Shown here piece after piece: positions 5,701-45,706 of a stretch of 50,212 nt of DNA. A model generated the notes under the pieces. The model was not told where the DNA came from, ran no database searches, and worked only from the letters and a program-made list of their open reading frames with translations. The stretch lies in contig JANQHK010000107.1 in the NCBI GenBank assembly GCA_028282685.1, positions 1 to 50,212 of the forward strand, written 5' to 3'. Numbering within the stretch: position 1 is the first letter of the stretch; every line of letters starts with the position of its first letter. Position numbers and translations under genes: made by a program. The DNA is from Phycisphaeraceae bacterium (GTDB taxonomy: Bacteria; Planctomycetota; Phycisphaerae; Phycisphaerales; Zrk34).

Positions 5701-7224
5701 ATGAACGACCGCACGACCACCTCCGACATCGGCCTCATCGGCCTGGCCGTGATGGGGCAGAACCTGGTGCTGAACATGGCCGACCACGGTTTCACGGTGT
5801 CGGTCTACAACCGCACCACCAGCAAAATGGAAGATTTCATCGCGCGCTGCCAAGCGGGGGAACCATCCGCCGAGCGCGTGATCGGGCATGCCGATCTGGG
5901 CGCGTTTGTGCGCTCGATCAAGCGGCCGCGAAAGATCGTCTTCCTGGTCAAGGCGGGCGCGGGAACCGACGCGGCCATCGCGGGCTGCCTGCCTCACCTG
6001 GAATCGGGCGACATCATCATCGACGGCGGCAACGCCAACTGGAACGACACCATCCGCCGCGAGAAAGAACTCCGCGCAAAGGGATTCGAGTTCATCGGCT
6101 CGGGTGTGTCCGGCGGTGAGCTGGGGGCGCGGTTCGGCCCGTCACTGATGCCCGGTGGATCGAAGAAGGCATGGAAATCTCTCGAACCGATCTGGCGTGC
6201 GATCGCCGCGAAGGTCGATCCGAAAACCGGCGAGCCCCTCGAAGATTACGCTCCCGGAAAACCCATCACCAAGGGCGAACCCTGCACCGCACACATCGGC
6301 GCCGGCGGCGCGGGCCATTACGTCAAAATGGTCCACAACGGCATCGAGTACATCGATATGCAGCTCATCTGCGAAGCGTACATGCTGATGAAGACGCTGC
6401 TGGGAATGAAGCCGGACAAGATGAGCAAGGTCTTTGAGGACTGGAATGCCGGCGATCTCGATTCCTACCTGATCCAGATCACCGCGGACATCCTGCAACA
6501 GCGCGACCCGGCGCGGCCGAAGAAGTTTCTGGTCGATTCCGTACTGGATACCGCAGGGCAGAAAGGCACGGGCAAGTGGACATCGGTCAGCGCGCTGGAC
6601 CTGGGCATCCCGGCCAACGCCATTGCCGAAGCGGTGTTCGCCCGATGCCTCAGCGCGTTGAAGGAAGAGCGCGTGGCCGCATCGAAGAAACTGAAAGGCC
6701 CGAAAGACCTGAAAGAAATCCGCGGCAAGAAGCAACTGATCGAGTCGATCCACTCCGCCCTTTATTGCTCGAAAATCTGCGCCTACGCGCAGGGCTTCCA
6801 GCTCATGGCCGAGGCGCAGAAGGAGTACGACTGGAAGCTGGACTTCGGCGCCATCGCGCAGATCTGGCGAGGCGGGTGCATCATTCGCGCCCGTTTTCTG
6901 CAGAAGATCACCGAGGCGTACGCCGCCGATGCGGAACTGCCGAACCTGATGCTGGCCCCCTATTTCCGCAAGGCGCTGCACAAGGGACAGGATGCCTGGC
7001 GGAAGGTGGTCTCGCTGGCGGTGCGTCATGGCGTACCCGTGCCAGCGTTCGGCAGTGCCCTGGCCTACTACGATGGCTACCGCACCGCGGTGCTTCCGGC
7101 CAACCTCCTCCAGGCCCAGCGCGATTACTTCGGCGCCCACACCTACGAGCGCACCGATGAGCCGCGCGGCAAGTACTTCCACGTGGACTGGCCGGAAAAA
7201 GATCGACCGCAACTGGAGATGTAA
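5701..7224 (+). CDS. gnd: 6-phosphogluconate dehydrogenase, decarboxylating
   Basis: A 507-residue enzyme of the oxidative pentose phosphate pathway that converts 6-phosphogluconate to ribulose 5-phosphate with CO2 and NADPH. Seen: nucleotide loop [15 protein letters not shown] after beta-2, substrate motif [16 protein letters not shown], the catalytic-Lys region [15 protein letters not shown] and [13 protein letters not shown]. The length is slightly above the usual 470-480. AGGAAGGTG precedes the ATG. An intrinsic terminator follows at 7264-7287. Confidence 0.96.
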
Positions 7225-7263
7225 TCCATATCTCTCGCGTCATTATTCCTCAGTACTCCAAGC

Positions 7264-7287
7264 CCCGGCCTTCAAACCGGGTTTTTT
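7264..7287 (+). terminator. Rho-independent terminator after gnd
   Basis: CCCGG (7264-7268) and CCGGG (7277-7281) flank an 8-nt loop and are followed by six T. A further T-run lies at about 7294-7299. It ends the dehydrogenase-gnd unit before the lipoprotein genes. Confidence 0.75.
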
Positions 7288-7354
7288 ACAAGGTTTTTTA
7301 TTGGTGACGAACTGACGTACCATGAAAACGTCTAATATTGCGAAGGAGCTGCCC

Positions 7355-7981
7355 ATGAAGGTGATCCTCTGTACTGCGGTCGGATTGTCCCTGGCTCTCG
7401 TGTCGTGTCATGCTGAGGGGCGCACCCGCGCATGGCAGAAGAACGAGGAGCCGGCCAAGCAGATTAAGTTCCAGGGGCGCGTTTCAGAACCCAGCCCACT
7501 GACCGCCGCGCTCTCCGTCGAGCAGACCACTTACAACTTGCGCAACGACCTGTTCGGAAAAACCAAGAAGGACCTCAAGGGTCCCAACCAACCCAAGCCC
7601 CCCGCGGTGAAGCTGGAGTTGACCATCACCAACACCAGCGCAAAGCCGATCACGTTGATGCGCGGCGCCGATGCCGAGCAATTGATCTTCGAGCTCACCG
7701 GACCCGGCGCAGTCTCCGTGCCCGCAAAAATCGCGATGACGATGGAGTACCGCCTGGGTAAGCCCACGAAGATCGTGCCGGGAGAATCGTTCACGATCGC
7801 CATCGGCCGACTATCCTTCGGCAAGCGCGGCATCAGCCGTTATGCTTACTGGACTCGACCCGGCGATTACACCCTGACCGTAACCTACCGGGGAGCCGCC
7901 CCCAAACCAAACGGTACGGCGCACCAGACACAACGCGTTACCGCCATCGCCCCGCCGGTCCGCCTGAGAGCGATCCAATGA
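7355..7981 (+). CDS. predicted lipoprotein sharing a domain with the next gene
   Basis: A 208-residue exported protein of unrecognised family. The N-terminus MKVILCTAVGLSLALVSC is a lipoprotein signal with lipobox LVSC (Cys 18). The ATG at 7355 is preceded by AAGGAG; an upstream ATG at 7322 lacks one. The region from about residue 75 to 185 contains LMRGADAEQ, ELTGPGAVSVPA and RYAYWTRPGDYTLTVTYRG. These closely match the C-terminal third of the next protein (LMRGSDKEQ, ELTGPGAIDAPA, QYAYWTRPGKYKLKVTYRG). It is probably a beta-rich domain, possibly immunoglobulin-like. The stop overlaps the next start by four bases (ATGA), so the pair is translationally coupled. Function unknown. Confidence 0.72.
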   Translation: MKVILCTAVGLSLALVSCHAEGRTRAWQKNEEPAKQIKFQGRVSEPSPLTAALSVEQTTYNLRNDLFGKTKKDLKGPNQPKPPAVKLELTITNTSAKPITLMRGADAEQLIFELTGPGAVSVPAKIAMTMEYRLGKPTKIVPGESFTIAIGRLSFGKRGISRYAYWTRPGDYTLTVTYRGAAPKPNGTAHQTQRVTAIAPPVRLRAIQ

Positions 7982-9300
7982 TTGCCAACCCTCCTATCCG
8001 TATGAAAGAGCGCATTGTGAAACGGTTCGTGATCCCGATCTTGATGTCGTTCCTGTTGCTGACGGGCGGGCCTGCCTACGCGGCGATCTGCAAGAAATGC
8101 CAGAGTCTGTTTCGTCTTCCCGCCAAGGGCACGTGCAGCGAATGCAACGCCGCCACCGCCAGCAAGTCCCTCAAACTTTGCCCGTCCTGCTCAAAGAAAA
8201 ACGGCCGATGCGAAAACTGCGGCGAACTGCTGGTCAGCAAAGCCGAGGCCGAGCGCCAGACCGCACTGCAAGCCGAGAAGCAGGCCGCAGAAAAACAGGC
8301 GAAGTACAAGCAGGGCAGCCCCTTCCTCGGCGCGCTGGCCATGACCGCCGCGCAGACGGAGGCCTTTTCCAAGTGGCAGGCCGGTTTCAGCGAACCGCCC
8401 GGCGTGGAACAGACCGCCCAATTCATGCAGGAGCATCTCGATCCGGCGCGGCTCGCCCTGTTCCGCGTGTTCGCCGAATACGGCATGCCCACGCTCGACC
8501 AGGTGCTCTCCGGTCCCGTCCTGCTCGATGATGCCGCCGACGGCTGCACCGTGCAGGTCAATCCCGGTCAATTCGTCGTGTGCAACCTGCCGGCCTCGGG
8601 AGCTTCGCAATGGCAGCCAACGATGCTGCGTGGCAAGGGTTTGATCACCTACACACGACAAACCTTCGCCAATCCCGATCCCGCACCCGGAGAACCCGAC
8701 GACATCTTCGTCATGATCCTCAAGGTCACCTCCCCCGGAACCGCGCTGGTGCAACTGCGCAGCGACCAGCCCTGGAATGCCGACGAGCCGGTCCGTCAGA
8801 TCGGATATACGCTCGACGCCGAACCGACCGACAGGCCATTGGCCCTGCTGTCGATGCCCAGCCGGGTCTTCAAGCTGCACCCGGACCTGAAAGGAAAAAC
8901 GCAGGAGCAGTTGACGGCAGACCCGCAGCCCGACCCCCCCACCGTCGATTTCACTTTACGCATCCTCAATCGCAGCGATCAGCCCTTTGAACTGATGCGC
9001 GGCTCCGACAAAGAACAGATCAAAATCGAACTGACCGGCCCCGGTGCAATCGATGCTCCGGCCTATGTGAAAATGTCCCGCGAGATTCGCCAAGGCAAGC
9101 CCTTCACGCTCAAGCCCGGCAAATGGTTGAGCCTGCCGATCAAGCGGTTATCGCACGGCTTGCGCGGCGTCAGTCAATACGCCTACTGGACCCGGCCCGG
9201 CAAGTACAAACTCAAGGTCACCTACCGGGGCATCCAGCCGGGCGCCGACAAAACCTTCACGCTCGAATGCCTGCCGGTCTACCTGCACGTGGTGGAGTGA
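7978..9300 (+). CDS. exported protein with four CxxC motifs and a domain shared with the preceding lipoprotein
   Basis: A 440-residue protein. A signal peptide (MKERIVKRFVIPILMSFLLL.. ending PAYA) is followed by two zinc-ribbon-like units (CKKC, CSEC, CPSC, CENC, about residues 36-85), an Ala/Glu/Lys/Gln-rich coiled segment and a middle region of unknown fold. The C-terminal domain (about 325-435) is homologous to the preceding lipoprotein. Translation may start at 7978, where ATGA couples it to the upstream gene, or at the ATG at 8002, which gives a better signal peptide. Zinc ribbons on an exported protein are unusual; the cysteines could bind metal or form disulfides. No function can be assigned. 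Confidence 0.7.
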   Translation: MIANPPIRMKERIVKRFVIPILMSFLLLTGGPAYAAICKKCQSLFRLPAKGTCSECNAATASKSLKLCPSCSKKNGRCENCGELLVSKAEAERQTALQAEKQAAEKQAKYKQGSPFLGALAMTAAQTEAFSKWQAGFSEPPGVEQTAQFMQEHLDPARLALFRVFAEYGMPTLDQVLSGPVLLDDAADGCTVQVNPGQFVVCNLPASGASQWQPTMLRGKGLITYTRQTFANPDPAPGEPDDIFVMILKVTSPGTALVQLRSDQPWNADEPVRQIGYTLDAEPTDRPLALLSMPSRVFKLHPDLKGKTQEQLTADPQPDPPTVDFTLRILNRSDQPFELMRGSDKEQIKIELTGPGAIDAPAYVKMSREIRQGKPFTLKPGKWLSLPIKRLSHGLRGVSQYAYWTRPGKYKLKVTYRGIQPGADKTFTLECLPVYLHVVE

Positions 9301-9385
9301 AATACGGTCCATGCCCGTGTTGTGATCGCCCATGGAGATCGGTATCATTGCCATCCCTCCCCCCCATCGACTCACGGGATACGCC

Positions 9386-10474
9386 ATGGCAACGACTTAT
9401 CTGATGCCGGTCGAAATGCACAACGCTCTGGTCAGCGCGGCATACCGGGCGCGCGGTTTTACCGCCGAGGAAGCCGACGCCGGGGCACGCTTCTGCGAAC
9501 TGGCGGCCTGGCACGGCATAAAAACCCACAATGCCATCAAGGCGCTGCACCTCGATGAACTGTTCGGCTCCAAAGCCGGCGGGTGCGTCCCCGGAGCCGA
9601 AATCGAAAAACTGCCCAGCCCCTACAAGGCCGTGCAACGCTGGAACGCCAACCGCAAGCTCGGCCAGGCGGTGGCCTTCGAGGCGATGGATGCGGCCTGC
9701 GCAATGGCCGATGAGTTCGGCGTGGGGATCGTCACGGTCGACCAGGCGTTTCATTACCTGTGGGGAGGCGGTTATGTGATCGACGCCGCCAAACGCGGTT
9801 ACCTCGCCTACACCTGCTGCACCGCCGCGCTGGCGGAAGTGGTCCCGTTCATGGGCAAGACACCCACACTGGGAACCAATCCGCACAGCTGGGGCTTTCC
9901 CACCACCGATGCGGTGGGCTTTCCGATCTGCATCGACTGGGCCACGAGCACCGTGGCGATGGGGCGCGTGCAGCAACTCAAGCGGGAAGACCAGCCCCTG
10001 CCTCCGGGCGCAGCCGTCGACGCCGAGGGCAACGAAACGACCGACCCGGCCCAGGTCGCCGCGCTGAAAACCTTCGGCGCGCACAAGGGCTACGGCCTGG
10101 CGTTGATCAACGAGTTGTACGCCGCTTATACAGGCGGGTCGCTGCCGACGCTGCGCAGCCGTTGGGGCAACGGACCGGATGACGAAAAATACACCCCCCA
10201 CTTCTTCTTCCAGGCGATCCGCCCTGAAGCGCTGACCTGCGACTTCGCGCAAGGCCGCGACCAGCCGCAGAACATCAAGGCCGTCCTGGATGATATCCGG
10301 CGCGAAGGCAATGCGGATTGCCTGTTGCCGGGCCAGATCGAAGCACGCAACGCAGCGCAAAGCCAGAAGCACGGCGGGTTACTGTTTACCGGGGCCGAGG
10401 TCGCCGAGTTCGAGCACATCGCCGCCGAAGCCGGCCAGACGCTCGATCGAACCGACCTGAAAACCATTGAGTAA
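9386..10474 (+). CDS. Ldh family NAD(P)-dependent oxidoreductase (malate/L-lactate dehydrogenase type)
   Basis: A 362-residue member of the type-2 malate/L-lactate dehydrogenase family (COG2055), which is unrelated to Rossmann-fold lactate dehydrogenases. Characteristic segments are RARGFTAEEAD near the N-terminus, the catalytic His in AWHGIKTHNA, GKTPTLGTNPHSWGFPT for cofactor binding, and GAHKGYGLALINEL. Family members reduce 2-oxoacids such as pyruvate, oxaloacetate, ureidoglycolate precursors or delta1-piperideine-2-carboxylate; the substrate cannot be told here. ATG 9386 is chosen because the family begins close to this point and a GGGA lies upstream. A longer form from 9332 is possible. 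Confidence 0.85.
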   Translation: MATTYLMPVEMHNALVSAAYRARGFTAEEADAGARFCELAAWHGIKTHNAIKALHLDELFGSKAGGCVPGAEIEKLPSPYKAVQRWNANRKLGQAVAFEAMDAACAMADEFGVGIVTVDQAFHYLWGGGYVIDAAKRGYLAYTCCTAALAEVVPFMGKTPTLGTNPHSWGFPTTDAVGFPICIDWATSTVAMGRVQQLKREDQPLPPGAAVDAEGNETTDPAQVAALKTFGAHKGYGLALINELYAAYTGGSLPTLRSRWGNGPDDEKYTPHFFFQAIRPEALTCDFAQGRDQPQNIKAVLDDIRREGNADCLLPGQIEARNAAQSQKHGGLLFTGAEVAEFEHIAAEAGQTLDRTDLKTIE

Positions 10475-16885: not shown

Positions 16886-17004
16886 CGCGCCCTGCCGGTT
16901 GAAAAAACTCACTAGTTATTTGAAAAAACCTGCATTCGTACGTCTGTAAGGGGGGGATGGTCCCCGTCTGTATTCACTCAATACGCTTCAGCAGGAGAAC
17001 CTTC

Positions 17005-18450
17005 ATGAATCGCCGCACCCTGATGGTGGCCTGGGGTCTGGCCTGGGCGGGTTTGTGGATATCGTCTGTTTCAGCCGCCCCACCGGTTCAAGATCGCAAG
17101 CCCTACGAACAGCAATTGAACAAAACCATAGCATTCCAGATAGACACGCCGTTGTACAAAGCGGTTCAGAAACTGGGCGGCCTGGCTGGATTACGGATTC
17201 GCCTGGACGGCGAAACCATGGAATCGGCCGGACACACCGATGTCAAAATCGAGGAAAAGCAAATCAGCGTCTTCAACGCACTTGAGACCGTTTGCGTTGA
17301 ATCCGATTTGCGGCTCGATTGGCATTTTATCGATGGCGAAGTGGTCATTGCCATGCGGGACAAAATCGCCAAGTCGGGCATGGTCCACAAGGTTTACGAT
17401 GCCCGCCTGCTCCTCATACAGCCGCGCAACTACCGCGCGACCGATTACGGGCTGAAGACAAATATTTTCGATGACACCGCCGGGGTATGCATCTTTGCTG
17501 ACATTTCAGAGCCGGACGAAGAGGCCGAACTTACCAAAAAAGGAAGCCAACTTGCGGACGCGATTCGGAATCACATTGAGCCGGAAGGCTGGCTTGCCAA
17601 TGGTGGTCTGTCGCAACGCATTTCCTGTGACAAAGGCCTGCTTCTGGTTTACGCCTCTCCCCAGATTCATAAACAGGTTGCCGCTTTTCTTGATGAATAC
17701 CACAAGACGCAGTGCAAGATGATCGCACTGGATATGCGACTGGTGGCAGCGCCGCGTCAGGATGTGGAAAAATTGCTGAGCCAGTCGTCCACCGCCCCGG
17801 TGCTCAACGCCGAAGCCGCCGATCGTTTTGTCGCCATGCTAACCAAACAACAGGACAAGGGCTGGGGCATTGCACAAATTCGGCAACTCTGTACGAACCG
17901 CCAACAGATTGCCATAACCGTGGGTGAAGAAAAGACGATCGTTTCCGATCTCGAACCGGTTGGGACGAACTCGGCCATGAGCTTCGATCCCGAAATCGAT
18001 GTGCTGTTGCGTGGGGCAACGGTTCAGATCCGCCCCCACGCCAGCCAAAACAACCAAAGCATCTACGTGCAATTGTCGACGATGCTCACCGCGCCTCGTC
18101 TGGAACGCACGGCGGCAATCTCCACTCCTGTGGGCGAACCGGTCCAGGCAATCCGAGCGGGCGGATATATCAATGGCAAGATCGATAAGGAAACCGGGAA
18201 ACTGAAAGACGCCTACAACAACACCACGGGAACCCTGCAAACGGATCCCAGTGGTGGAAGCGTTGCCTCCATCAATCAGCCGGACAACGAGATTCTGACC
18301 TTTCAGAGCGACATCACACTCCCGGATCGCGGGGCCGCAGTGCTCTCGTGTTCAACGGAATTACTGAACAAGCTGTGCCCCGGAATTCAACTCGACAACG
18401 CCAGCGAGTTGGTCCTGTTCATTCGGGCCAAAGTGGTGGAGGTGAAATAA
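17005..18450 (+). CDS. exported protein with secretin N-domain-like regions
   Basis: A 481-residue protein with a signal peptide (MNRRTLMVAWGLAWAGLWIS, cleavage after VSA). The ATG at 17005 is preceded by AGGAGA. Residues about 40-115 resemble an STN/secretin short N-domain (TPLYKAVQKLGGLAGLRIRL, VKIEEKQISVFNALETV). Residues about 180-240 look like a secretin N1-type unit (GLLLVYASPQIHKQVAAFLD). A C-terminal region ends with ITLPDRGAAVLSCS, similar to the VPDGGTVLLGG strand of secretins. It is too short to contain a full secretin barrel and no other secretion genes adjoin it. It may be a periplasmic relative of type II/III secretion components; the function is unknown. Confidence 0.68.
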   Translation: MNRRTLMVAWGLAWAGLWISSVSAAPPVQDRKPYEQQLNKTIAFQIDTPLYKAVQKLGGLAGLRIRLDGETMESAGHTDVKIEEKQISVFNALETVCVESDLRLDWHFIDGEVVIAMRDKIAKSGMVHKVYDARLLLIQPRNYRATDYGLKTNIFDDTAGVCIFADISEPDEEAELTKKGSQLADAIRNHIEPEGWLANGGLSQRISCDKGLLLVYASPQIHKQVAAFLDEYHKTQCKMIALDMRLVAAPRQDVEKLLSQSSTAPVLNAEAADRFVAMLTKQQDKGWGIAQIRQLCTNRQQIAITVGEEKTIVSDLEPVGTNSAMSFDPEIDVLLRGATVQIRPHASQNNQSIYVQLSTMLTAPRLERTAAISTPVGEPVQAIRAGGYINGKIDKETGKLKDAYNNTTGTLQTDPSGGSVASINQPDNEILTFQSDITLPDRGAAVLSCSTELLNKLCPGIQLDNASELVLFIRAKVVEVK

Positions 18451-41036: not shown

Positions 41037-41180
41037 TTATCGACCGCCGGCTGGGGCACGGTGAAAAACCGGCGTTGGACGCCGCCGCTTGCTGTGACCG
41101 ATAAGCTTTTTTAGAGTGGCGAAACGTCGGCCGGCCTTGGAATGCCGGCCCGCATGATGTTACCCGCCATGGAAGGCGAC

Positions 41181-43145
41181 ATGACCACCGTGACCGCACC
41201 GCGATCCCGCTCATCCAGAACCCCCTCCAAGCGCAAGTCCGTCGACGCCGCCACACTGGCCCACAACCAGCGCGAAATCTCCGTCAGCGAATTTTTCGCA
41301 AAAAACCGACACCTGCTGGGTTTCGACAATCCCCGCAAGGCCCTGCTAACCAGCATCAAGGAAGCCGTCGACAACGCTCTGGACGCCTGCGAGGAAGCGG
41401 GAATCCTGCCGGAGCTTTTCGTCGGCATCGAGCCGATCAGCGAAACACGGTTCCGCGTGACCGTGCGCGATAACGGGCCGGGCATCGTCAAAGGCCAGGT
41501 CGGCAACATCTTCGGCAAACTGCTGTACGGCTCAAAGTTCCACCGGCTGAAGATGAGCCGCGGCCAGCAGGGCATCGGCATTTCCGCCGCGGGCATGTAC
41601 GGCCTGATGACCACCGGCAAGCCGATGGTCATTCACACCAAGCCCCGGAAGAACAAGCCCTGCCACAAGATCACCGTGGCGATGGACACCCAGAAAAACC
41701 GCCCGGAGATCAAGGACGAAGAAGAGCACCACGCTTTCGAGCATCCGACCGGCACCGAAGTCAATATCGAACTCGAGGCCAAGTACAACCGCGGCAAGCA
41801 GTCCGTGGATGAATTTCTCGAGCAGACCGCCATCGCCAATCCGCATGCGCGCATCATCTACCAGCCCCCCACCGCCTGCCGCACCGCCAACGGCCAGGAC
41901 GATGACGAAAACCTGCCCACACTGATCGATGATTACGAGCACGCACGAAAACTGGCCGACAAGGCCGCCGGCACCGCGACCACACCCGGCGGGACGATCG
42001 TCTACCCGCGCGGCGTCAGCGAACTGCCCGAAGAGCCCAAAGAGATCAAGCCCCATCCCTACGGCATCGAACTGGGCACGCTGATCAAGATGCTCCGGGA
42101 CAACGAGGGCCAATCACTCAACCAGTTCCTCACCGGACAATTCTGCAAGGTCAGCTCGCGGATCGCCCAGGACCTTGCGGAGCAGTCGGGGATGACTTCG
42201 CGCACGCGCGTCACCGGCATCACGCATCACCAGGCCGAGGCGCTGTACAAGGCCATCCAGGAAACGAAACTGCAAAGCCCACCGACCAATTGCCTCTCGC
42301 CGATCGGCACGCGGCAGATCCTCGCGGGCCTGCTCAAGGGGCTCAAGGCCGAGTTTTTCACCGCCACCACGCGCAAACCCACGGTTTACCGCGGCAACCC
42401 GTTCCAGATCGAGGTGGGCATGGCGTACGGCGGCGACCTGCCGGCCGATCAGTTGGGGCGGGTGATCCGCTTCGCCAACCGCGTGCCGTTGCTTTACCAG
42501 CAATCCAGTTGCTGCGCGTACAAGGCGGTGCTGGAGACAACCTGGCGGAACTACGGCTTGCAGCAATCGCGCGGCGCGCTGCCCACCGGACCGCTGGTCG
42601 TGATGATTCACATGGCCAGCGTCTGGGTGCCGTTCACCAGCGAATCGAAGGAAGCGATCGCCGATTACGATGAAATCCGCAAGGAGATCAAGCTGGCGTT
42701 GGGCGAATGCGGGCGGAAGCTGAACACCTACGTCCGTCGCCGTCAGCGCATCAAGCGGGAATCGGAACGCCGCAGCGTCTTTGAAAAATACATCGGCGAG
42801 GTGGTCACCGCGCTCAACGCCATCGACAAATCACTGAAGAAAACCGAGTTGAAGCAGCGGTTTGAAGCGGTCGCCAAGCGCATCACCCTCGAAGCCGACA
42901 CGCAGTTCGATGAAGACGGCAATCCGATCAAGGCCGGCGCCAACGGAAACGGATCGCTGGATCGCGATGAATCGACGGTGATCCTGGGCGAAGGCGAATC
43001 GCCGCCTTCACTCGATACTCCCGCCACCAAAGGCAAACGCAAGACCAAAGCCAAAGGCGGCAGCCGGACGAAGATGGCATCCCAAAAAACCCGCACCAAA
43101 AACCACATCGACGATGACGGGCAATACGAACTCTACGCATCGTGA
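41181..43145 (+). CDS. top6B: DNA topoisomerase VI subunit B
   Basis: A 654-residue GHKL ATPase of type IIB topoisomerase. Residues about 35-230 carry the Bergerat fold: EAVDNALDACEEAG (N box), RDNGPGIVKGQVGNIFGKLL (G1) and SRGQQGIGISAAGMYGLM (G2). HPTGTEVNIEL, an H2TH-like middle region and a transducer domain (QIEVGMAYGGDLP, FANRVPLLYQQSSCC) follow. The last 60 residues are a Lys/Arg/Thr-rich tail. With subunit A it would relax and decatenate DNA using ATP. ATG 41181 follows GGAAGG closely; other ATGs from 41142 are possible. Such enzymes are typical of archaea and plants and rare in bacteria. Confidence 0.94.
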   Translation: MTTVTAPRSRSSRTPSKRKSVDAATLAHNQREISVSEFFAKNRHLLGFDNPRKALLTSIKEAVDNALDACEEAGILPELFVGIEPISETRFRVTVRDNGPGIVKGQVGNIFGKLLYGSKFHRLKMSRGQQGIGISAAGMYGLMTTGKPMVIHTKPRKNKPCHKITVAMDTQKNRPEIKDEEEHHAFEHPTGTEVNIELEAKYNRGKQSVDEFLEQTAIANPHARIIYQPPTACRTANGQDDDENLPTLIDDYEHARKLADKAAGTATTPGGTIVYPRGVSELPEEPKEIKPHPYGIELGTLIKMLRDNEGQSLNQFLTGQFCKVSSRIAQDLAEQSGMTSRTRVTGITHHQAEALYKAIQETKLQSPPTNCLSPIGTRQILAGLLKGLKAEFFTATTRKPTVYRGNPFQIEVGMAYGGDLPADQLGRVIRFANRVPLLYQQSSCCAYKAVLETTWRNYGLQQSRGALPTGPLVVMIHMASVWVPFTSESKEAIADYDEIRKEIKLALGECGRKLNTYVRRRQRIKRESERRSVFEKYIGEVVTALNAIDKSLKKTELKQRFEAVAKRITLEADTQFDEDGNPIKAGANGNGSLDRDESTVILGEGESPPSLDTPATKGKRKTKAKGGSRTKMASQKTRTKNHIDDDGQYELYAS

Positions 43146-43185: not shown

Positions 43186-44373
43186 ATGGCCAAGAAAAAA
43201 GTCACCAAGAAGAAAACGGCGAAGAAAGCGCCCACCCGTAAGAAGGTAGTGAAGCGCCGCACCCCCGCCACCAAACGCAAGGACACCGCCACGAAGCTGA
43301 ACGAACTGGCGCACGCCGTGGCCGACCAGGTGGAAGACGGCAAAGACCCCGGCGTGGCCATTCCCACGCGCGCCCTGTCCAACGTCAGCTTCGACCAAAA
43401 AGCCGGACTGATCCGCATGGGCGACAACGCCCAGCGCCGCAGTTTCTTCAATCTCGGCCAGGCCAAGAAGTTCATGCAGACCATGCTGGTGGCTTCCGGA
43501 TCGAACGCGTTGATCCGCCAAGCCAAGACCACCTCCATTCGTGACCTTTTTTATCACTGCAAACACACCATCGCCGGAACCAGGGAAAACACCTTCGATG
43601 AGCAGAGTGAATCCGATCCGATCATCGAAGATTTGGAAGTGACGCTCGGTTCGTTGCGCGAGGAACTGGGCCTGTTCGCCGAACCCAAGGGCGCGATGGT
43701 CGGTCCGATGACCATCGTCGACAACGGCGACGTGATCGACCTGTCCAAGATGGGTTCCGGTGGATGGGCGGTGCCGAGCATCGTGGAAGACCACGTCATC
43801 CAGTTCAAGCGCGGCAGCGCCAAGTTTGTCCTGCTGATCGAAAAAGGCGCGGTCTGGCGGCGGTTCAGCGAAGACCGCTTCTGGGAAAAGCACAAGTGCA
43901 TGATCATCCACGGCGGCGGCCAGCCGCCGCGCGGCGTTCGCCGACTGATCTGGCGGATGCACAACGAACTGAAACTGCCGGTCTACGTGCTGGTCGATAA
44001 CGATCCCTGGGGCTATTACATCTACTCCGTCGTCAAGCAGGGCTCGATCAACCTGGCCTTCGAAAGCCAGCGCATGGCGATCCCCGATGCGCGGTTCATC
44101 GGCATGAGCAGTTACGACATGGAACGGTTCGAGATTCCCAAGGCCGTGACGATCAATCTGAACGATCAGGACATCCGCCGCGCCAGGGAAATCCTCAACT
44201 ACCCGTGGTTCCAGAAAAAGCAGGGCCGAACCTATCCCTGGCGGAACGAAATCAACCACATGCTCAAACTCGGCGTGAAGCTGGAACTGGAAGCGCTGTC
44301 CAACAAGGACTTCAGCTTCATTACCGAGCACTACCTGCCGCGCAAGCTCAAAGACAAGCAGTGGCTGGATTGA
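43186..44373 (+). CDS. top6A: DNA topoisomerase VI subunit A (Spo11-like)
   Basis: A 395-residue DNA-cleaving subunit. The first 35 residues are Lys/Thr-rich (MAKKKVTKKKTAKKAPTRKK). The winged-helix/5Y-CAP domain holds the catalytic Tyr in TTSIRDLFYHCKHT (Tyr 123). The Toprim domain has FVLLIEKGAVW (Glu 219) and LVDNDPWGYYIYSVV (Asp 271, Asp 273) for metal binding. All residues needed for double-strand cleavage are present. It lies 40 bp after top6B in an operon. Confidence 0.95.
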   Translation: MAKKKVTKKKTAKKAPTRKKVVKRRTPATKRKDTATKLNELAHAVADQVEDGKDPGVAIPTRALSNVSFDQKAGLIRMGDNAQRRSFFNLGQAKKFMQTMLVASGSNALIRQAKTTSIRDLFYHCKHTIAGTRENTFDEQSESDPIIEDLEVTLGSLREELGLFAEPKGAMVGPMTIVDNGDVIDLSKMGSGGWAVPSIVEDHVIQFKRGSAKFVLLIEKGAVWRRFSEDRFWEKHKCMIIHGGGQPPRGVRRLIWRMHNELKLPVYVLVDNDPWGYYIYSVVKQGSINLAFESQRMAIPDARFIGMSSYDMERFEIPKAVTINLNDQDIRRAREILNYPWFQKKQGRTYPWRNEINHMLKLGVKLELEALSNKDFSFITEHYLPRKLKDKQWLD

Positions 44374-44395: not shown

Positions 44396-44536
44396 GCTTT
44401 GAAAAAACCTTTCTCCGGCACTCAAGACACCCTTGAGTCCGTCCGATAAGCCCAAAAGCAAAGCGAAATGGGAATTTTTATCGGGTGCGCTATCAATCTG
44501 GTCGAAACCTTGTTTGTCAGCAGCAGGAGAATGACT

Positions 44537-45706
44537 ATGCGTCGCACTTCAAGCGTCATCGCGAGCGTGTTGGTGGTCCTGGCCGTTTCGGGTTGTTCCA
44601 GATTCCAAGCGGAATACCTACCCATCGAACCGGTCCGTCATCAGGCCTCGGTTTCTCCGGTCACCAACGATAACCCGCGTCCGGCCCCGGCATTTGTCAA
44701 CATGGTCAGCGCGGCCGACCCGGGACGGTACGTCGGCACGATGAATCTTTACGGGGAAATGCCCGGTTCGCCGAAAACCATACCCAACGATGCCCTGGAC
44801 AACCTCCAGCAGGTCTCTTTTACGCGAGAAGGGGCTGATTTCGACGCCGACGTGGACCCCACCGGCCAATGGCTGATCTACGCTTCCACGCGCCACCGCC
44901 CCACCTCCGACCTGTACATCAAGCGTGTGGAAGGCACAGCCATCACGCAACTGACCGACGATCCGGCCAACGACACCATGCCCGCCATCAGCCCGAACGG
45001 GAAGCTGGTCGCTTTCTGCTCCGATCGCAGCGGAAGCTGGGACCTGTACATCAAGCCGGTCTCAGGCGGCAAGGCCGTCCAGCTGACCTCCGGCCCCGCG
45101 CAAGATCTGCACCCCAGTTGGTCGCCGGACGGCGGCAAGATCGTCTACAGCTCGCTGGGTGAGCAGTCCGGACAGTGGGAATTGGCGATCATTGATGTGG
45201 CCAACCCGATCAACAAGCAATTCATCGGGTACGGCCTTTTCCCCGAATTCAGCCCGACAGGCAACAAAATCGCCTTTCAACGGGCACGGTTCCGCGGAAC
45301 GCGGTGGTTCAGTCTCTGGACCATTGACTATATTGACGGCGAAGCCAGCCAACCCACAGAGGTCGCCGTTTCGACCAATGCCGCGGTCATCACCCCCACC
45401 TGGTCACCCGACGGCAAGCGGTTGGCATTCGTGACGGTGGTCAACCCCGGCAATGATCCGCGCGTCCGCCCGGATAACTCGAACCTGTGGGTTATCAACG
45501 CCGACGGAACCGGCCGGATCAACCTCACAAACGACCGCTACGTCAATCTCCAGCCCACCTGGGGCCGGAACGGGCGGCTGTATTTCGTGACCAACCGCGG
45601 GGCTGCGGACAACATCTGGGCGACTCGCGTGGACCAGCCCCTTCTGGCCGGCTCGGGGTCCGAAAAAGAACCTGCACAAACACAGGCCATGGTGCCGACA
45701 GAATAG
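44537..45706 (+). CDS. TolB-like beta-propeller lipoprotein
   Basis: A 389-residue protein. A lipoprotein signal (RRTSSVIASVLVVLAVSGC, lipobox VSGC) precedes a six-bladed propeller with repeated PD40 motifs: DVDPTGQWLIYASTR, AISPNGKLVAFCSDRSGSWD, SWSPDGGKIVYSS, EFSPTGNKIAFQ, TWSPDGKRLAFVT and TWGRNGRLYFVTNR. It resembles the propeller of TolB but lacks its N-terminal domain and no tol/pal genes adjoin it. It probably binds an envelope protein or polysaccharide. ATG 44537 follows AGGAG at nine bases; the ATG at 44531 is too close to that site. Confidence 0.83.
   Translation: MRRTSSVIASVLVVLAVSGCSRFQAEYLPIEPVRHQASVSPVTNDNPRPAPAFVNMVSAADPGRYVGTMNLYGEMPGSPKTIPNDALDNLQQVSFTREGADFDADVDPTGQWLIYASTRHRPTSDLYIKRVEGTAITQLTDDPANDTMPAISPNGKLVAFCSDRSGSWDLYIKPVSGGKAVQLTSGPAQDLHPSWSPDGGKIVYSSLGEQSGQWELAIIDVANPINKQFIGYGLFPEFSPTGNKIAFQRARFRGTRWFSLWTIDYIDGEASQPTEVAVSTNAAVITPTWSPDGKRLAFVTVVNPGNDPRVRPDNSNLWVINADGTGRINLTNDRYVNLQPTWGRNGRLYFVTNRGAADNIWATRVDQPLLAGSGSEKEPAQTQAMVPTE

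Follow-up and report, generated by a model that had tools for sequence, protein, structure and literature searches.

Parts of two proteins, Orf1 and Orf2, resemble several described families in sequence or in modelled fold. The two are encoded by adjacent genes in the window analysed here (the whole stretch of 50,212 nucleotides of contig JANQHK010000107.1, from a Phycisphaeraceae bacterium). One of these families is BsuPI/IPI (PF12690, structure 3isy), in which secreted multi-domain members exist and whose standing as a true inhibitor is disputed, according to the passages available from the source (PMC3901451). Orf1 and Orf2 share a domain that is modelled as an Ig-like beta sandwich of a size similar to that of BsuPI/IPI, but both proteins appear to be exported and joined to other modules. 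A second one is the chagasin family I42 (PF09394). Residues 177-272 of Orf2, including a PW..DEP tail, align with planctomycete I42 domains, and three of these come after the same zinc ribbon that Orf2 carries; in contrast to that family, Orf2 has lost the NPTTGY loop (aligned as LPASGAS), its RPW reads QPW, and Pfam does not report the domain. NPTTGY and RPW are the inhibitory loop motifs of I42. CRIPT (cysteine-rich PDZ-binding protein, PF10235) is eukaryotic and intracellular, and zinc ribbons are as a rule found in the cytoplasm. The planctomycete ribbon aligns to CRIPT (7dvq chain 0) over its last three CxxC pairs, but appears to be extracytoplasmic, mostly has an extra leading CxxC and, in Orf2, stays below the Pfam cut-off. 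Finally, there are anti-sigma and ECF proteins with extracytoplasmic tails, among which locus L021 carries the shared domain and locus L038 the ribbon outside the membrane, whereas Orf1 and Orf2 have no reported zf-HC2 or sigma domain and no adjoining sigma gene.

The order of the parts (Table 1), that is, lipoprotein and Ig-like domain in Orf1 and signal peptide, ribbon, linker, I42-like stretch and Ig-like domain in Orf2, is well supported, the I42 label excepted. Residues of Orf2 are numbered from the ATG at 8002. The upstream ATG, at 7978, overlaps the Orf1 stop in the sequence ATGA, and this overlap is the one sign that translation of the two genes may be coupled. Orf2 looks exported, with a signal that has no twin arginine and appears by eye to be of the Sec type. 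The neighbours are gnd (named by eye) upstream and a malate/lactate dehydrogenase gene (Ldh_2) on the other side, and the terminator-like stem found 3' of gnd suggests that Orf1 and Orf2 may form a transcription unit of their own. In the region 7000-9500 no Rfam family matched at gathering. The G+C content of both genes (60-62%) lies inside the 54-64% range of the first 20 kb, and 6 of 12 relative loci also have the hydroxyacid dehydrogenase-gnd pair found upstream of Orf1, so that the contig is native to the lineage. At these 12 loci, whose flanks reach at most 1.5 kb, there was no match to Orf1 or Orf2 at E<=1e-5, and none of 100 near relatives matched Orf2 at E<=0.001; the two genes look like accessory genes of unknown origin. 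Elsewhere in the window, positions 16957-18450 (+) encode an exported-looking protein of 497 aa with no Pfam match at E<=0.001. Two adjacent genes at 41142-43145 and 43186-44373 (+) encode the subunits of DNA topoisomerase VI (Topo-VIb_trans, E 2.7e-59; TOP6A-Spo11 Toprim, E 6.5e-60), an enzyme better known from archaea, and they are adjoined by a gene for a lipoprotein-like PD40 beta-propeller protein (44468-45706, +).

Table 1. Features of the Orf1-Orf2 locus, in positions of the window.
Feature	Positions	Strand	Description and basis
Intrinsic-terminator-like stem and T run, 3' of gnd	7264-7281	+	3 such sites in region against a shuffle mean of 2.4: weak
Orf1	7355-7981	+	208 aa, starts MKVILCTAVGLSLALVSC; lipobox L-V-S-C (by eye), followed by a single copy of the shared domain
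Shared Ig-like (IPI-like fold) domain, copy 1, Orf1	about 7484-7975	+	sequence profile, model
Orf2	7978-9300	+	440 aa from ATG 7978, or 432 aa from in-frame ATG 8002
Orf2 signal peptide	8002-8085	+	MKERIVKRFVIPILMSFLLLTGGPAYA/A, end AYA/A; by eye
CRIPT-like zinc-ribbon unit of Orf2	8086-8232	+	four CxxC, at 8089, 8134, 8179 and 8209; profile and PDB matches
Orf2 linker	8233-8529	+	charged, probably helical; by eye and low-confidence single-sequence model
Degenerate chagasin-like (I42-like) domain of Orf2, residues 177-272	8530-8817	+	custom I42 profile, hhalign; not reported by Pfam
Shared Ig-like domain, copy 2, Orf2	about 8842-9297	+	sequence profile

A sequence-only reading of this DNA had proposed that a lipoprotein and the next exported protein share a domain that is not recognised by known families. 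The shared domain is confirmed: the two copies are 50% identical over 137 aligned columns, and a search of the genome with Orf1 (E<=10) returned these two places only, the second one at E 5.4e-41; the profile extends, however, over nearer 150 residues than the 110 or so first given. Neither Orf1 nor Orf2 reached the cut-off of any Pfam or NCBIfam family (Orf1 had a weak NCBIfam match to TIGR03769, E 0.014) and PHROGs gave no match at E<=0.1, the shared Ig-like family being absent from these three libraries. A two-row profile found the domain in 7 of 392 planctomycete genomes, including its own, and an eight-row profile found the same seven. A DNA-pattern scan of genome contigs gave three loci, two of them apparently L006 and L007 and the third L021, and a further family-wide round yielded only known loci (2 of 5 genomes matched); viral contigs (one profile scan) and plasmids (searched with Orf1) contained no relative. 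Only in its own genome are there two copies. The six single-copy homologues are exported-looking proteins of 211-235 aa (351 aa in L009), and no CxxC unit was seen in the ORFs read in those genomes. The pair is therefore special to its own genome in the searched set, and the domain itself occurs rarely, at scattered points across the phylum. Copy 1 is 25-33% identical to the other homologues (35% to L021 and 27% to L063), against 48% to copy 2 in this comparison, which speaks for a duplication within the lineage. The duplication noted in the sequence-only reading is real, but the two-part system that it was taken to suggest is not supported by the other six genomes. The same reading would have given way to a well-known family for the shared domain together with homologues devoid of CxxC; such homologues are what we found, but no family cut-off was reached.

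The surroundings of the domain vary among its carriers. In L021 it follows a zf-HC2 motif (E 1.7e-7) and, by eye, a membrane helix, in an anti-sigma-like protein whose gene overlaps an ECF sigma gene with its start codon (L021:3725-5331), and in L022 a trypsin-like peptidase is encoded by the second gene after the single-domain homologue. In L063 a ribbon of three CxxC is joined to an Ig domain of the shared family (hhalign 83.3%, E 8.6e-6), and the CxxC unit is a module of its own, which in this three-CxxC form meets the shared-domain family. The Ig domains of the ribbon proteins L056, L057 and L059 do not match that family (hhalign 8.9%), and neither does the tail of L038 (1.3%). A common family for the shared Ig domain and I42 was not supported (hhalign 0.6%). 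Neither was the possibility that Orf1 is a truncated Orf2 keeping the last I42-like strand (W..xEEP..QI), as 325 of 5000 shuffles scored at least as high as observed.

A model of the shared domain built from five aligned sequences is a beta sandwich (pLDDT 83.5, pTM 0.78). Foldseek placed two E. coli alpha-2-macroglobulin entries first (E 7.1e-4 and 1.7e-3), followed by B. subtilis IPI/BsuPI 3isy (E 2.7e-3), with a poor superposition (TMq 0.28, rmsd 12.6), and by RbmA (E 3.2e-3). By VIA, 113 of 117 residues aligned with IPI (Z 7.1, rmsd 3.7), and the Z values were 8.2 for the N-terminal part of the metalloendopeptidase AsaP1, which we take to be its propeptide, 7.7 for RbmA and 7.3 for Spo0M; many other Ig-like folds, which are common, score alike, and a VIA Z below 8 may reflect only the common arrangement. 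That a number of these neighbours either inhibit peptidases or form part of one may be regarded as suggestive and no more. In sequence searches of the PDB, Orf1 and Orf2 as single queries found nothing below E 0.39, and the domain profile gave antibody light chains (E 0.08) and IPI (E 0.24), matches too weak to count alone. Orf1 scored 11.8-12.8 bits over 21 residues against the BsuPI family (E 0.12-0.24), missing the gathering threshold of 22.9 bits, and PF12690 was found at E<=1e-5 in none of 61 genomes (its own and near relatives).

The four CxxC motifs lie straight after the signal peptide of Orf2, as had been noticed from the sequence, and their description as zinc-ribbon-like agrees with both the profile of the module and its best match in the PDB. 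This match was CRIPT (7dvq chain 0, E 5.3e-5, over 37 residues that cover the last three CxxC pairs), the next one being the MAT1 RING at E 0.0055. Three carriers of the module pass the Pfam cut-off for Cript of 25.5 bits (L035 with 26.6, L036 with 25.8 and L068 with 26.7), under which Orf2 remains with 16.2-16.3 bits; the best Pfam ribbon for Orf2 is Zn_ribbon_15, with 20.9 bits against a cut-off of 28.9. The CxxC motifs of Orf2 are not a chance cluster, because the module profile recurs, with 25 matches in 24 of 392 planctomycete genomes. Exported zinc ribbons had been called uncommon, and so they are, but they are recurrent in this phylum; the parts of the literature under open licence that were available gave no pointer to an exported CRIPT-like ribbon. 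All four CxxC are present in 18 of the 25 matches, Orf2 included, and the other 7 are without one CxxC or its spacing, among them the serpin protein L031/L064 (CxxxC) and L063. The distance from first to last cysteine is 44 residues in 11 of 12 profile units and 45 in L038; as these 12 units were picked by a loose four-CxxC pattern, their eight invariant cysteines are partly so by construction, which does not hold for the equal spacing. From the cysteine spacing and the CRIPT match, the ribbon would be expected to bind zinc.

Judged by eye, 20 of the 25 matches have a signal peptide or lipobox, and in L038 the ribbon follows a membrane helix; L066 and L067 show no sign of export, and L060 and L061 are truncated or hard to assign. 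In most carriers read, the module either directly follows the signal peptide or lies close to the C-terminus. Its partners include I42 above the Pfam cut-off in L030 (E 1.5e-27), L032 (E 1.7e-8) and L027 (E 1.9e-10), the last two from one genus, and an exported-looking serpin (L031:367-1809, -; E 7.8e-125) preceded by a unit of three CxxC and one CxxxC. Other partners at Pfam level are an M16 peptidase (L025), a hydrolase (L029), an ECF sigma factor that has the ribbon on its extension (L038), ankyrin repeats (L061) and a thioredoxin-like domain (L058). The ribbon protein L057 matches BsuPI weakly, with 18.1 bits (E 0.0027) against the cut-off of 22.9, and its relatives L056 and L059 gave none. 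A search with residues 26-283 of Orf2 matched 72 of 392 planctomycete genomes at E<=0.1, and 19 loci (L025-L043) were read among its matches. Of these, L039 looks like a chance GTPase match, L034 is a fragment of 55 aa, and L028, L037, L042 and L043 do not carry this module, their cysteine pattern being different. In these four exported-looking proteins another N-terminal cysteine-rich stretch precedes, by eye, a TPR-like region and a sulfatase-modifying-like domain, and they may represent another type of exported zinc-ribbon protein; they are also examples of the weak matches that are the only ones to extend into the Orf2 linker. The single-sequence model of Orf2 was poor (pLDDT 42.4).

The I42-like domain of Orf2, together with the IPI-like fold and the recurrence of the ribbon on unrelated exported proteins, goes beyond what the sequence-only reading contained. 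In the search just mentioned, Orf2 matched L033 (E 4e-4) and L030 (as a second match, E 0.0088) across this stretch, and both are I42 according to Pfam. A profile made from four Pfam-recognised I42 domains gave 27.2 bits for residues 177-272 and 23.4 for the whole of Orf2, the best of 2000 shuffles reaching 6.2, and hhalign gave 93.7% (E 1.9e-7), with none of 40 shuffles exceeding 1.3%. L033 was itself found using Orf2 as query, and when it was left out of the profile the values fell to 11.7 bits for the stretch and 7.9 for the whole of Orf2, with 8.2 for the best of 2000 shuffles and 18.5% by hhalign. Pfam PF09394 (gathering 27.2 bits) did not report Orf2, in a search whose filters drop most weak matches, and the sole match of this family in the genome is at another place (E 0.34, 12.7 bits). 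Taking these values together, we consider it quite probable that residues 177-272 are homologous to I42, although the whole-Orf2 score, which drops slightly under the best shuffle once L033 is omitted, lowers this probability a little. Because the NPTTGY loop is lost and RPW is changed, classic I42 inhibition is doubtful, and it is unlikely that Orf2 would inhibit papain-type enzymes in the canonical way. In its own genome, which is 98.5% complete, the papain family C1 (PF00112) had no match at E<=0.01; a C1 target could still come from outside the genome.

The single most likely function of Orf1 and Orf2, to which we would give a probability of roughly 0.38, is that of an envelope pair which binds, and thus restrains, peptidases through inhibitor-type Ig-like domains. 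Both proteins would be co-expressed, Orf1 as a lipid-anchored single Ig-like domain and Orf2 as an exported protein in which a CRIPT-like zinc ribbon and a linker precede a diverged chagasin-like domain and the second Ig-like domain, and they would bind proteins, in particular peptidases in or around the envelope, by means of these domains. The zinc ribbon would serve for structure or docking, as a module found on many exported proteins of planctomycetes. We favour peptidase binding because the ribbon is fused to I42 and serpin domains elsewhere, Orf2 has an I42-like domain and the shared domain has an IPI-like fold. Such fusions, with a peptidase-inhibitor domain above the Pfam cut-off, make up 4 of the 25 module matches. 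It speaks against this function that the shared domain or the ribbon is also present on enzymes, ankyrin-repeat proteins, a sigma factor and an anti-sigma-like protein. In fact, it is nearly as likely that the Ig-like domains and the ribbon are generic extracytoplasmic modules for interaction or sensing, in envelope stress or complex assembly, with no inhibition involved and with the I42-like stretch as just another beta sandwich. The anti-sigma-like protein L021, with its shared domain and its overlap with an ECF sigma gene, would be accounted for in this way, as would the sigma factor L038 with its ribbon and the ribbons on hydrolase, M16 peptidase, thioredoxin and ankyrin proteins; moreover, the residues conserved in the shared domain (L, N, G, P and W) look structural. 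Generic modules would nevertheless leave unexplained why the ribbon is joined to bona fide inhibitors, I42 in two genera and a serpin in a third, and no sigma or anti-sigma gene is seen beside Orf1 and Orf2.

We regard it as improbable that the eight cysteines are paired in disulfides or make up a redox centre in an oxidising envelope, which would make Orf2 a redox or structural protein with no zinc site. Sec-type export delivers cysteine-rich chains unfolded, CxxC is also a thiol-redox motif and the ribbon protein L058 has a thioredoxin-like domain, but the CxxC pairs are spaced as in zinc knuckles, CRIPT, whose cysteines are metal ligands, is the closest relative of solved structure, and Pfam reports no thioredoxin-like family for Orf2. 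There is also a slim chance that Orf1 and Orf2 are structural or adhesive matrix proteins which, like RbmA, hold parts of the envelope or matrix together. RbmA is the fourth neighbour by Foldseek and scores above IPI by VIA, and IPI itself is closest to RbmA by DALI, as given in the available passages of PMC3901451; on the other hand, RbmA is one among many Ig-like neighbours of similar Z, neither Pfam nor NCBIfam reports an adhesin family for Orf1 or Orf2, and the locus is a small two-gene unit beside metabolic genes.

The peptidase-binding function could be extended to the module as a whole, although we consider this extension rather speculative. The portable extracytoplasmic CRIPT-type ribbon would be a tag for docking or assembly in the envelope, attached N- or C-terminally to secreted inhibitors, peptidases, hydrolases and sensor proteins, and Orf1 and Orf2 would be a lineage-specific secreted anti-peptidase pair, with Orf2 as a three-domain inhibitor docked through its ribbon and Orf1 as its lipid-anchored partner. 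The pair adds an Ig-like domain family that is new to Pfam, NCBIfam and PHROGs, and the ribbon, as it recurs on exported planctomycete proteins together with peptidase inhibitors and enzymes, would be an unrecognised extracytoplasmic module and would offer a handle on how planctomycetes organise proteolysis in their envelope.
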